A stretch of 27,543 nucleotides of DNA, from positions 1-27,543 of the IMG/VR virus record IMGVR_UViG_3300031631_000016; one strand, 5' to 3'. The position numbers and the translations under genes are program-made. Positions 2,658 through 25,668 of the stretch are shown in pieces. Below the pieces are notes generated by a model, which was not told where the DNA came from, ran no database searches, and saw only the letters and a list, made by a program, of their open reading frames with translations. Each line of letters begins with the position of its first letter. The stretch's first letter is position 1. This DNA comes from a virus.

Positions 2658-3796
2658 CAAACTTCCTCCGCCCATGTGGTTGTCAAATTAAGGCTTTGCA
2701 AAATCGCCAGACCATTGTCCGGAACCTGTATATCCCCTGCCATACCCCAGTTGATTTTCTTGATCCCGGGAACAGCCATGGCCACGTGGGTGAGCCGGTC
2801 AATTGTCAGGTCTTCTGATATTTCAAGGGGATCCACTCCAGCCAGAACAGGCGGATCCTGAAACAAGGCTTGTATCCTGTTTTCCACACCGGCCAAGATT
2901 ATTTCAGGTGTCCCCGACACGAGAACAAGTTCACCGTCAATGGCCGCATTAACAGGAACGGGAGAGACAACTTTGACATCATCATTTATCGGTCGGTTTG
3001 ATTCGGTCACTTTAAAAACCGCATCAATTAACTCTTGTGACGGTATGCCGGCAGCTCCTTTCACAATGACATCCACCGTTCCCTGGCCCCTTGGGTGCTG
3101 GTCCATAACCTTCACAGACACAACCCCTGATACGCTTCTTGCCCAGCTTTCATAGGCATATTTAGTACTGCCATTAACATCCTTCCAAGCCAACACATAT
3201 CTTTCCCTCAACGGCTCATCCTCTTCCTTGTCCACCGCTTCCCGGGTAAGCCAGTCATCCCCATTGGAAACTGTGTCAATACCAGGGATGACGGTTGATA
3301 TCTCACAAATCATATGCGTTGTCACATTGGCCTGCCTGCCATAGTCTTCAGACTCAACATCCACCAAGATGGAATCCTGGCCCGCCGGAAGCACAACACT
3401 GCCCAGGACAACAAATCGATATATGATTCCGGCGGCGTCCGGTTTGGTCTTGATAATCGTGTTTTTCCGGATGGTGATATTCTCCGCCGTATTATCCCGG
3501 GCAAACAGTACCTGCCCCAATGCTTTGGTGGCCAGTTGTCTAATCACTCCCACCTGGGCGCAATGCAGATCCAGCCACATCCCTGTGGCCAGGGAGGGAA
3601 AAAGCTGCCCAAAAACTAATATTAAAAATTGATAAAGCTGGTATAGCCCCCAGGCCCAAAGCTCAATCAGCCCTCTGACAACCCCTTTGTTCAAATTTAA
3701 TTTTTGTGGCAGATTGCCAGACTCCTGGAGATCCGATATTTTTTGGAACAAATCGTTCCTGACTTCATCAAGGGTTTTACTGACCGGGATTGACAT
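2657..3796 (-). CDS. Baseplate assembly protein J (Mu gp47-like)
   Basis: This 379-aa protein has the typical J/gp47 plan. The N-terminus is helical (TLDEVRNDLFQKISDL). A segment LATGMWLDLHCAQVGVIRQLATKALGQVLF follows. Next is a beta-rich middle with LPAGQDSILVDVESEDYGRQANV, then the conserved stretch EEDEPLRERYVLAWKDVNGSTKYAYESWARSVSGVVSVKVMDQHPRGQGTVDVIVKG. J-type proteins form the baseplate wedge together with gpW and gpI. Length is close to Mu gp47 (381 aa). The gene overlaps gpW by 20 bp on one side and the next tail gene by a TGATG junction on the other, consistent with coupled translation in the order W-J-I. Confidence 0.85.
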   Translation of the reverse strand: MSIPVSKTLDEVRNDLFQKISDLQESGNLPQKLNLNKGVVRGLIELWAWGLYQLYQFLILVFGQLFPSLATGMWLDLHCAQVGVIRQLATKALGQVLFARDNTAENITIRKNTIIKTKPDAAGIIYRFVVLGSVVLPAGQDSILVDVESEDYGRQANVTTHMICEISTVIPGIDTVSNGDDWLTREAVDKEEDEPLRERYVLAWKDVNGSTKYAYESWARSVSGVVSVKVMDQHPRGQGTVDVIVKGAAGIPSQELIDAVFKVTESNRPINDDVKVVSPVPVNAAIDGELVLVSGTPEIILAGVENRIQALFQDPPVLAGVDPLEISEDLTIDRLTHVAMAVPGIKKINWGMAGDIQVPDNGLAILQSLNLTTTWAEEV

Positions 3797-4214
3797 CTTT
3801 AATCACCATTTCCATATTGGTTCCAACCTCAATAATCAGGTTGTAAATGTGGGATTCATTAATAAACCTCCAGGAGGCTGTAGACTTTATGCCTTTCTCA
3901 TCCCAGTATAAAATACTGCATGATTCACTGCCGGGAAGCACTCTCGGGTCCATCCGGATCCTTCTTACCACCTCGGAACAAAACCCCATTCTTGCAAAAA
4001 GACTGTTTTCATCCTTGATCCATTCATGAACGAGACTGCCGAATTCTTTGTCGTAAAAAAGTGTGCCCAGGGGAGTGAACAGCCGCAGTTTGATATCCTG
4101 GCTGCCTGTCCCCGGGCCATCCGTAAGCAGCAATTCGCCATTTGCCGCCACCATGGCCTGGCCTGTTTCATTAAGCTTGATATCTTGTCCAAATATTTTA
4201 TCCTGCAAAGACAT
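3777..4214 (-). CDS. Baseplate wedge protein W (gp46/GPW_gp25-like)
   Basis: The start MSLQDKIFGQDI (ATG 4212-4214) was chosen because GGGGAG lies five bases upstream and longer in-frame extensions run into the PAAR gene. The protein is about 145 aa. It carries the gp25/gpW lysozyme-like baseplate signature: DIKLRLFTPLGTLFYDKEFGS, then RRIRMDPRV and INESHIYNLIIEV. The family, related to T4 gp25, joins the baseplate wedge to the sheath. It overlaps the end of the PAAR gene and the start of gpJ, so V, PAAR, W and J form one tightly packed unit. Confidence 0.8.
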   Translation of the reverse strand: MSLQDKIFGQDIKLNETGQAMVAANGELLLTDGPGTGSQDIKLRLFTPLGTLFYDKEFGSLVHEWIKDENSLFARMGFCSEVVRRIRMDPRVLPGSESCSILYWDEKGIKSTASWRFINESHIYNLIIEVGTNMEMVIKDVNPGQ

Positions 4215-4482
4215 TATTACTCCCCGTTGCCATGTTGCTACCACAATCCACAGGATCACCTATCCTGCATACTGACTGTCCATTTACAAAAACCGTTGCG
4301 CTGCCTCCGGCAGCGATACCTCCGTGTCAAGGGGGGCCTCAACAGTGAATTTCCCAAGCATCCCCTTTCCGGTGCCACCCTTTGCTGTTAACAAAAACAT
4401 CATCGCTGGCCTTTGCGTTTGCCCGGGATGGAAAACATCCGTGTCCTGTACAAGTATCTTTATGTCTATGAGCCGCTGGCAT
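4198..4482 (-). CDS. PAAR spike-tip protein with two in-frame TGA codons: candidate selenoprotein
   Basis: Translation from ATG 4482 (AAGGAGG just upstream) to TAA 4198 gives 94 codons with the hallmarks of a phage/T6SS PAAR protein. These are MPAAHRHKDTCTGHGCFPSR, the duplicated VFVN, GWHRKGDAW, TVFVNGQSVCRIGDPVDCGS, and the ending ATGSNNVFAG. Two codons are TGA: residue 48 (4341-4339) and residue 52 (4329-4327), in HC-TGA-GPP-TGA-HGG. As I remember the family, the matching residues are cysteines (HCCGPxCH). There is no other lesion; ribosome site, stop and overlap with gpW are intact, and the V-PAAR-W order is that of P2-like baseplates. PAAR proteins cap the spike and bind a metal ion. I infer TGA is read as selenocysteine. 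A pseudogene with two nonsense mutations is the main alternative. Confidence 0.75.
4299..4315 (-). promoter_or_regulatory. SECIS-like hairpin in the PAAR coding sequence
   Basis: On the minus strand CGCUGCC-GGA-GGCAGCG forms a perfect 7-bp stem with a three-base loop that starts with G. The stem begins exactly 11 nt after the second TGA, and the loop G is 18 nt after it and 30 nt after the first TGA. Bacterial SECIS elements bind SelB, lie just downstream of the UGA inside the coding region, and need a G in the first loop positions. The E. coli fdhF element likewise has a short upper stem-loop about 11 nt after its UGA. One hairpin may serve both codons. No bulged U is present in the stem, unlike fdhF. 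Confidence 0.6.
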
Positions 4483-4491
4483 ATCGCCTCC

Positions 4492-4968
4492 TTATGGATT
4501 GAGATCAATCCGGGTACCCTTGAGGGTGATATTTCCCGAGGTAACGATTTCAATATTTTTTTGTGCATCAATTTTAAAATAGACTCCTGGAGCCTGCTGG
4601 ATGATCAATCCGCCGATTTCCACGGCAGGTGCTTTCATGCCATGCCAACGAAAATTCGATATTCTGGGATAATTGGGATCCCCATCATAATATGAGAGAT
4701 CACAAAAAGTTCCGATGGCAGGCGGACAGACAATTCCCCGCTCAGGCCCGCCCCACATCACCGGGATTTCCACCCGGGGGATGACAGGTTCCGATTCGTC
4801 CACGGATTCATCATTTTTTAGGGGCTGGACATCTGCCCAGTATTGGCCATCAGAAGCATAGGATTTGGTAACTTTGGCTTTCCGGACAATCCGGTAATAA
4901 GATCTCAGGTCCGGCATTACCAACTCCATTACCCTTTTTAATAACGCTTTAAGATCAATATTTTTCAT
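4492..4968 (-). CDS. Baseplate spike protein V (Mu gp45-like)
   Basis: I chose start MKNIDLKALLKR (ATG 4968), preceded by GGAG at good spacing; an upstream ATG at 4980 lacks room for a site. The protein is about 158 aa. It has an N-terminal helix, an OB-fold-like region (YYRIVRKAKVTKSYASDGQYWADVQPL ... VEIPVMWGGPERGIVCPPAIGTFCDLSYYDGDPNYPRI), and a C-terminal needle (GVYFKIDAQKNIEIVTSGNITLKGTRIDL). This is the plan of P2 gpV/Mu gp45, the membrane-piercing central spike. It ends TAA 8 bp before the start of the PAAR gene, which would cap its tip. Confidence 0.8.
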   Translation of the reverse strand: MKNIDLKALLKRVMELVMPDLRSYYRIVRKAKVTKSYASDGQYWADVQPLKNDESVDESEPVIPRVEIPVMWGGPERGIVCPPAIGTFCDLSYYDGDPNYPRISNFRWHGMKAPAVEIGGLIIQQAPGVYFKIDAQKNIEIVTSGNITLKGTRIDLNP

Positions 4969-5770
4969 ACATTTCTCCATACTTGATAAACGTTCTGACA
5001 GATGCCGGCTTGATTACATGCCGCACAGCCAGGCTGCTGAATATCTGATCAATCCCCCTGGCGTTATCCTTTAGCCTGAATTTCATGCAGCGTTTGAATC
5101 CGGGCATCAGGAATGTTTCAACCAGGCTCAGGCCCGTCTGCAATCCAGTTGCCGGCAAATGCCGGATCAAGGTGGATCCGGTTTCAATAACCGGTATGTC
5201 AACATCCTCATCAGATCTGCACCAGTTCACTATCCCGTCGCTGCCCATCCAAAGAGCCCAGCCTCTCATGTCCAGGGCAAATGCCTTACGGCAGGTATGT
5301 TCGCACTGCCTGGCCAATTGCCACACCGGAATGTTTGAAGCAATAAACCTTGGGAATATCACTCCTGGAGAATCAATTTTGCCAACATCAAGACCGGCCT
5401 GGCCAATTGCCCAGGTCACAATTGCCTCCGGAGTTTCATTCTCCCATGATTGGATAATGCGGGTGTCACTCAAAGGCCTTTCCATGCCCACTGCTTTAAC
5501 AAGGATTTGATCCCTTTTGTTTGGCGGAGCAATTTTTGAAATAGTGCCGGTCCATTCATCCGGTACCTGATCTCTGTATCCTATCCGGATGATTACAGGA
5601 TCACTGGCCTTAAATGTTTTGAAAAGATTCCCGCCAGGATCTGACAAAAGAATTTCAACGCAGGACAGGTGGGAATGTCTGGAATAATGAATACTGCATT
5701 CCGGGCACCTGAATATTTCAAGGTTGCCAATGAAAATATGGGTTCTTATGCCTGTGATTCTGGCCATCAT
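4955..5770 (-). CDS. Baseplate hub protein (late control gene D/Mu gp44-like)
   Basis: This 271-aa protein resembles the gpD/gp44 hub family. It has an N-terminal barrel with ECSIHYSRHSHLSCVEILLSDPGGNLF, then VIIRIGYRDQVPDEWTGTISKI, then a central part with the typical WQLARQCEHTCRKAFALDMRGWALWMGSDGIVNW. Hub trimers link the tail tube to the spike, in agreement with its place between the tape-measure region and the V gene. It overlaps the preceding gene by an ATGA junction and the V gene by 14 bp. Mu gp44 is longer (379 aa), so this is a compact version. Cysteines are fairly frequent (ECSIH, CEHTC, NWC). Confidence 0.7.
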   Translation of the reverse strand: MMARITGIRTHIFIGNLEIFRCPECSIHYSRHSHLSCVEILLSDPGGNLFKTFKASDPVIIRIGYRDQVPDEWTGTISKIAPPNKRDQILVKAVGMERPLSDTRIIQSWENETPEAIVTWAIGQAGLDVGKIDSPGVIFPRFIASNIPVWQLARQCEHTCRKAFALDMRGWALWMGSDGIVNWCRSDEDVDIPVIETGSTLIRHLPATGLQTGLSLVETFLMPGFKRCMKFRLKDNARGIDQIFSSLAVRHVIKPASVRTFIKYGEMYEKY

Positions 5771-25059: not shown

Positions 25060-25668
25060 CTAATCTCCTATTTTTATCGGAGTTAATGCTGCAAGGCGAT
25101 CCTCATCAGCTTCAGTCATACGGCATGCGGCCTGGGTGTATGGGATCGTGCGGACAAGTCTGCACTCAAATGATTTGTAAAACAGATTCTCAAGAACCTC
25201 TATGGCCGCTTTTTGAGCCGTATAGAAATAAGCAAGCCCAAGGTCATGGTCCCAGGCAAAATCAAACACAGAAGGTATACAAGAGGTTTTTTGAAGCAAA
25301 GAATCATAAAGCAATTCCCGAATTTCAGCCTTTTCATTTTTAGAAAGAAATTCTCTGCCGGTTTCAGTTTTTCTTTTTTCAAAGCTGATCGCCATTTGCT
25401 GCTGGAGAACTTTGGGCGGTACCGTCTTTTTGTCAATCCTTAAAGAAAACAAAGACACGCCATTGTACAGGAATGGATTCGCTACAAAGTCCGGTATATA
25501 TGGGCTTTCAAAGGGAACCCAACCTATTATTGTTTCTTTATACTCATCCGGGATCACCGGCATGGCATTGGCCTTTAATCCAGCCAGGACCATTGCCGGA
25601 ACAACGGCTTCATTTATGTTTTCAACTTGGTATCTTATGATTGTCTGGCTTGGTGATAATGCTCCCAT
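25060..25668 (-). CDS. rdgC: RdgC-like recombination-associated protein (N-terminal half)
   Basis: At 202 aa, this starts at ATG 25668 (GGAGG five bases upstream, overlapping the previous stop as TAATG). RdgC features are visible: IGWVPFESP near residue 49, LRIDKKTVPPKVLQQQM, EFLSKNEKAEIRELLYDSLLQK, and FDFAWDHDLGLAYFYTAQKAAIEVLENLFYKSFECRLVRTIPYTQA. RdgC forms a DNA-encircling dimer that limits RecA. E. coli RdgC is about 303 aa; the missing C-terminal half seems to be the next gene. In a phage it may protect ends or control recombination during replication. Confidence 0.75.
   Translation of the reverse strand: MGALSPSQTIIRYQVENINEAVVPAMVLAGLKANAMPVIPDEYKETIIGWVPFESPYIPDFVANPFLYNGVSLFSLRIDKKTVPPKVLQQQMAISFEKRKTETGREFLSKNEKAEIRELLYDSLLQKTSCIPSVFDFAWDHDLGLAYFYTAQKAAIEVLENLFYKSFECRLVRTIPYTQAACRMTEADEDRLAALTPIKIGD

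Follow-up and report, generated by a model that had tools for sequence, protein, structure and literature searches.

The closest described counterparts of the protein considered here are the PAAR tips VCA0105 (4jiv), c1882 (4jiw), T4 gp5.4 (4ku0/5iv5) and UpfC of phage P1 (9vyi), which it matches in profile searches with E-values from 4e-10 to 5e-14. PAAR proteins hold zinc with three histidines and one cysteine (PMC5014421), and none of these tips has been described as a selenoprotein. A second point of comparison is provided by bacterial selenoproteins: HesB-like (UxGP), UXX-star, rhodanese-like (UxxxxU) and other families have been predicted from Cys/TGA pairs combined with a bSECIS element. 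In the bSECIS model, the loop measures 3–9 nt with a G in the first two loop positions, the upper stem has 4–16 bp, and the element lies 16–37 nt from the UGA with a folding energy of at most -7.5 kcal/mol (PMC13188914).

The words phage, viral and PAAR are absent from that 2026 review of prokaryotic selenoproteins (PMC13188914), and text searches of deep-Sep and of a 2022 review found no mention of PAAR or phages. The open-access literature yielded no phage selenoprotein, and returned only papers on animal viruses and nutrition together with one tRNA-Sec call, in line with an earlier note on this DNA which knew of no described phage spike selenoprotein. Among animal viruses, poxviruses encode a selenoprotein glutathione peroxidase with a SECIS in the 3' UTR. 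Like the gene proposed here, it is encoded by a virus and depends on Sec machinery supplied by the host, but it is an antioxidant enzyme of a eukaryotic virus, whereas the present protein is a bacteriophage tail tip. An earlier hint of selenocysteine in phages is the tRNA-Sec gene reported in Basilisk-like (Bacillus) phages; unlike the present locus this is a tRNA call only, made in a passage that names no selenoprotein gene (PMC6145125).

An otherwise intact PAAR gene carries two in-frame TGA codons

The window (the whole stretch of DNA analysed) is a 27.5-kb IMG/VR virus record of which the host genome is not part. Within it, a PAAR spike-tip gene occupies positions 4198–4482 on the minus strand, to which all window features given below with coordinates also belong. 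Its translation runs to 95 codons and is interrupted by two internal stops only, both TGA, before a terminal TAA; the product has 94 residues when TGA is read at residues 48 (4339–4341) and 52 (4327–4329), both predicted to be selenocysteine (Sec, U). The two codons stand in the context HC-U-GPP-U-HGG, a turn opened by His46 and Cys47 (4342–4347). A ribosome-binding site, AAGGAGG (4487–4493), can be read directly 4 nt 5' of the ATG. The upstream neighbour is a baseplate protein gene (PHROG 4011; 4492–4980), a likely spike or hub partner, and the PAAR gene starts 9 nt past its end. Downstream lies a baseplate wedge gene of the gpW/gp25 type (3777–4214), whose start codon is within the PAAR gene and which overlaps it by 17 nt. 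On direct re-reading the ribosome site, frame, stop and overlap with the gpW gene proved to be as the earlier note had described them, with the two TGAs as the sole defects.

The identity of the gene is borne out by profiles, by the AlphaFold2 fold described below and by its setting. With Cys placed at both TGAs, the protein matches Pfam PF05488 (PAAR_motif) with E=3e-9 and 37.4 bits against a cut-off of 27, and PHROG 281 (PAAR) with E=3e-33 over residues 1–94; an NCBIfam T6SS PAAR model also matches, with a score below its cut-off. Like the described tips, the protein keeps H14, H46, H53 and C80, and its gene sits inside the tail/baseplate module beside hub/spike and wedge genes. It differs from them in the two in-frame TGAs at extra Cys positions of an HCCGPPCH turn.

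The remainder of the window belongs to a Mu-like myophage whose head-tail module is intact, with genes for terminase, portal, protease, major head protein, sheath, tape measure, wedge and GemA. The remaining module genes are open and overlapping, free of frameshifts and further stops. No second PAAR match was found in the window contig, and an Rfam search of positions 4000–4700 gave no meaningful match. In the early region, positions 25060–25668 match RdgC weakly (Pfam PF04381, E=2.5e-5, just under the cut-off).

The TGA codons stand at conserved cysteines

All 13 first-round homologues read HCCGPPCH, with Cys at both TGA positions. Identity to homologues is 49–76% over the full length and is conserved on either side of the TGAs. 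The proposal that both TGAs fall on conserved cysteines was thus upheld by the alignment, in which the close homologues all have Cys at 48 and 52. Across ~190 homologous PAAR loci collected by protein similarity, no in-frame stop was present except in the query.

Two scans of IMG/VR for the exact motif returned two real PAAR genes and about a dozen chance matches. The real genes, L025 (HCUGPACH) and L028 (HCUGPPCH), each have TGA at residue 48 and are otherwise intact. Independent relatives bearing an in-frame TGA, as the earlier note had asked for, were thereby found; their residue 52 is Cys. Since the scan demanded TGA at these positions, L025 and L028 are not an unbiased sample; the lack of other stops among the homologues is a fair counterweight to this TGA-seeking search. 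The three PAAR proteins are 55–60% identical pairwise. L025 and L028 both belong to T4-like phages and are accompanied by hub/lysozyme genes; a gp25-type wedge gene is present in one of these phages and rIIA/B genes in the other (L028), whereas the window phage is Mu-like. Grouping of the window protein with that of L025 had no support in a tree; the group label took in these two rows only, and the L028 protein (row L247_6460), which carried no label, stood on a separate open branch. A blind, frame-by-frame scan of the L028 contig, which looked for genes that fill a gap when TGA is read through, gave PAAR as the only convincing case, next to one frame that was not convincing.

Assuming neutral single substitutions, 17–27% of stop-gaining changes in the PAAR gene are Cys to TGA and 5–8% fall at residues 48 or 52. 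Taken alone, the probability that both stops would land on Cys by chance is ~3–7%, and chance becomes much less likely given TGA-48 in two other phages and no other stop in ~190 homologues. These figures bear on the possibility that the contig is prophage-like and its PAAR gene was killed by two nonsense mutations, with the function lost or supplied from another PAAR. Decay usually shows itself in nonsense codons, a Mu-like phage is temperate, and the chance of ~3–7% leaves some room for such an event. However, the open module genes, the single PAAR match in the contig, the same TGA codon in two phages of another kind and the stop-free homologues all argue against it. We consider loss of the gene unlikely, although decay or a sequence error is the chief competitor of the Sec reading.

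Searches for further examples were negative. TGA at residue 47 gave chance matches only. In 84,980 cellular species genomes, the pattern HCU-GPx-[CU]H followed by RR gave eight chance matches and no PAAR. No TGA-bearing PAAR appeared when three phyla were searched, two of them for PAAR genes (398 and 396 genomes) and the third by pattern (398 genomes). In another PAAR subtype (L052, L055–L058, L060–L062, L064, L076, L109, L110 and L114), HGC.VC.PH replaces HCCGPxCH, which amounts to a remodelled vertex loop with two Cys kept; no TGA form of this subtype was found in IMG/VR.

TGA is a stop codon elsewhere in the window

Nine other window genes terminate with TGA and no other window gene has an internal TGA; five genes of the L028 contig likewise end in TGA. 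Because normal genes there end in this codon, we can conclude that TGA is not globally recoded in the window or the L028 contig, as the earlier note had maintained for the window. For L025 recoding is less firmly excluded, since the contig is short (10 kb, 25% G+C) and no TGA terminator was seen in it. TGA could instead stand for Cys, Trp or Gly if a suppressor tRNA were at work or the host were recoded, and phages with recoded stops do exist (PMC9523058, code 15). Given the TGA-terminated genes in both contigs, the lack of other internal TGAs in the window, and the finding of no tRNA gene in the phage contigs scanned for one, this reading seems very unlikely.

No tRNA-Sec was present in the phage contigs examined, nor were selA, selB, selC or selD seen, and one candidate match (G004) was rejected as a tRNA-Ser by ARAGORN. 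At least eight tRNA genes are clustered in the phage contig L120 (the record of L054); a Ser tRNA among them scores just above the tRNA-Sec cut-off, a warning on tRNA-Sec calls in phages.

The window is a metagenomic contig represented by a single copy, and a sequencing or assembly error could in principle have turned two TGY codons into TGA. This would take two substitutions rather than homopolymer slips, both on Cys, while the same Cys is affected in two other assemblies and nothing of the kind occurs in ~190 other loci; an error is highly improbable. We give least credence to a selenium- or stress-sensitive UGA switch, in which termination at residue 48 would alter how the overlapping wedge gene is translated and hence how the baseplate is assembled: the wedge gene does start in the last PAAR codons and the 17-nt overlap makes translational coupling possible, but in L025 the next gene does not overlap and two neighbouring UGAs would be costly as a switch, which is in any case compatible with Sec insertion.

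A SECIS-like hairpin lies downstream of both TGA codons

A SECIS-like hairpin is found at 4295–4319, with a 7-bp stem (CGCUGCC/GGCAGCG, 4299–4315), a GGA loop (4306–4308) and a folding energy of -13.2 kcal/mol. It lies 18 nt past TGA-52 and 30 nt past TGA-48, spacings at which one hairpin could serve both codons. The L028 hairpin has a 6-bp stem and an AGUUG loop, 20 nt from the TGA (-11.5 kcal/mol). Both satisfy the bSECIS constraints of PMC13188914, a loose model which 71 of 131 Cys homologues pass too. The L025 hairpin, 18 nt from its TGA, is long and mismatched with a GGU tip, and it fails the strict 4-bp upper-stem rule.

When compared with synonymous shuffles, the window hairpin is stronger than 99.7% of them as measured from TGA-52 (P=0.003) and than 96.7% from TGA-48 (P=0.033), and the L028 hairpin is borderline (P=0.07). 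The L025 fold is unusual (z=-3.1, P=0.001), and the whole 54-nt region after TGA-48 in the window folds ordinarily. Since these statistics were chosen after the hairpins had been seen and the measures differ, they are support rather than proof. The locus resembles the selenoproteins of PMC13188914 in having TGA for a conserved Cys, conserved flanks, TGA homologues elsewhere and a downstream hairpin, but unlike them its product is a structural part of a virion, not a redox enzyme or transporter.

Predicted structure, zinc site and cysteine pairs

An AlphaFold2 model built from a 76-sequence alignment has a pLDDT of 98.4; an 11-sequence alignment gave a poor model. The model shows the conical beta PAAR fold, with Foldseek TM-scores of 0.87–0.92 (query-normalised) to 9vyi, 4ku0, 4jiw and 4jiv, and the HC-U-GPP-U-H segment forms a beta-hairpin turn. 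Alignment to the zinc-bound structures 4jiv and 4jiw predicts H14, H46, H53 and C80 as zinc ligands, all invariant in the 76 sequences. The Cys positions 48 and 52 are additional to this site and lie next to it, in the turn between H46 and H53. The suggestion that Sec might be a ligand of the known PAAR metal was accordingly set aside: the four aligned ligands lie elsewhere and are all still present, so Sec48 and Sec52 would not be canonical zinc ligands.

The extra cysteines vary in pairs. Positions 16 and 48 are both Cys in 127 sequences, neither is Cys in 3 true PAARs (two of them nearly identical) and none is mixed; two further rows in this count are non-PAAR. In ~130 PAARs, Cys16 and Cys48 are lost jointly (for example in L198, L241 and L233) and never singly, which points to a conserved pair separate from the known zinc site. 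Positions 47 and 52 are both Cys in 108 sequences, neither in 10 and mixed in 14. This covariation suggests two bonds beside the zinc, 16–48 and 47–52, and by extension Cys16-Sec48 and Cys47-Sec52 bonds stapling the tip of the window protein; Cys16 (4435–4437), which covaries perfectly with position 48, is the proposed partner of Sec48. Instead of staples, a second metal site may be present. Selenenylsulfides close at a lower potential than disulfides and can arise and persist in a more reducing environment.

Selenocysteine as the best reading, and a proposed role

Selenocysteine at both TGAs of the PAAR spike tip is the best reading and a likely one, with its decoding inferred from the Cys/TGA exchange in three phages, the use of TGA as a stop elsewhere and the SECIS-like hairpin. 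In the mechanism we propose, the product would cap the spike of a contractile phage as its PAAR protein, and UGA-48 and UGA-52 would be decoded as Sec by host SelB and tRNA-Sec, directed by the hairpin just downstream. Residues 48 and 52 would flank the turn between the zinc ligands His46 and His53 at the tip, where Cys16-Sec48 and Cys47-Sec52 selenenylsulfides could keep the puncturing tip locked inside an anaerobic host, whose cytoplasm is reducing.

More broadly, we suggest as a tentative idea, rated somewhat short of even, that Cys at the spike vertex has given way to Sec repeatedly in phages that infect Sec-using, probably anaerobic bacteria, giving rise to the first virion selenoproteins of bacterial viruses. 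The staples (or selenolate metal ligands) would hold the tip in strongly reducing surroundings, and infection would be tied to the host selenium supply. If true, PAAR would be a new selenoprotein family and, as judged from the open-access literature searched, the first selenoprotein known from bacterial viruses or from contractile injection machines. Sec would be used outside catalysis, in a structural virion part that can be made only with host Sec machinery and selenium, a possible determinant of host range. Ordinary gene callers would also be missing an essential tail gene.

The relatives of these phages were examined for clues to the host. For one of them, L041, similarity to Pseudomonas phages extends over just 3% of 20 kb. 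The L028 contig (L247/L248) encodes the large subunit of an anaerobic (NrdD-like) ribonucleotide reductase (L248:1950–3731), a hint of an anaerobic host for that phage which fits the proposal.
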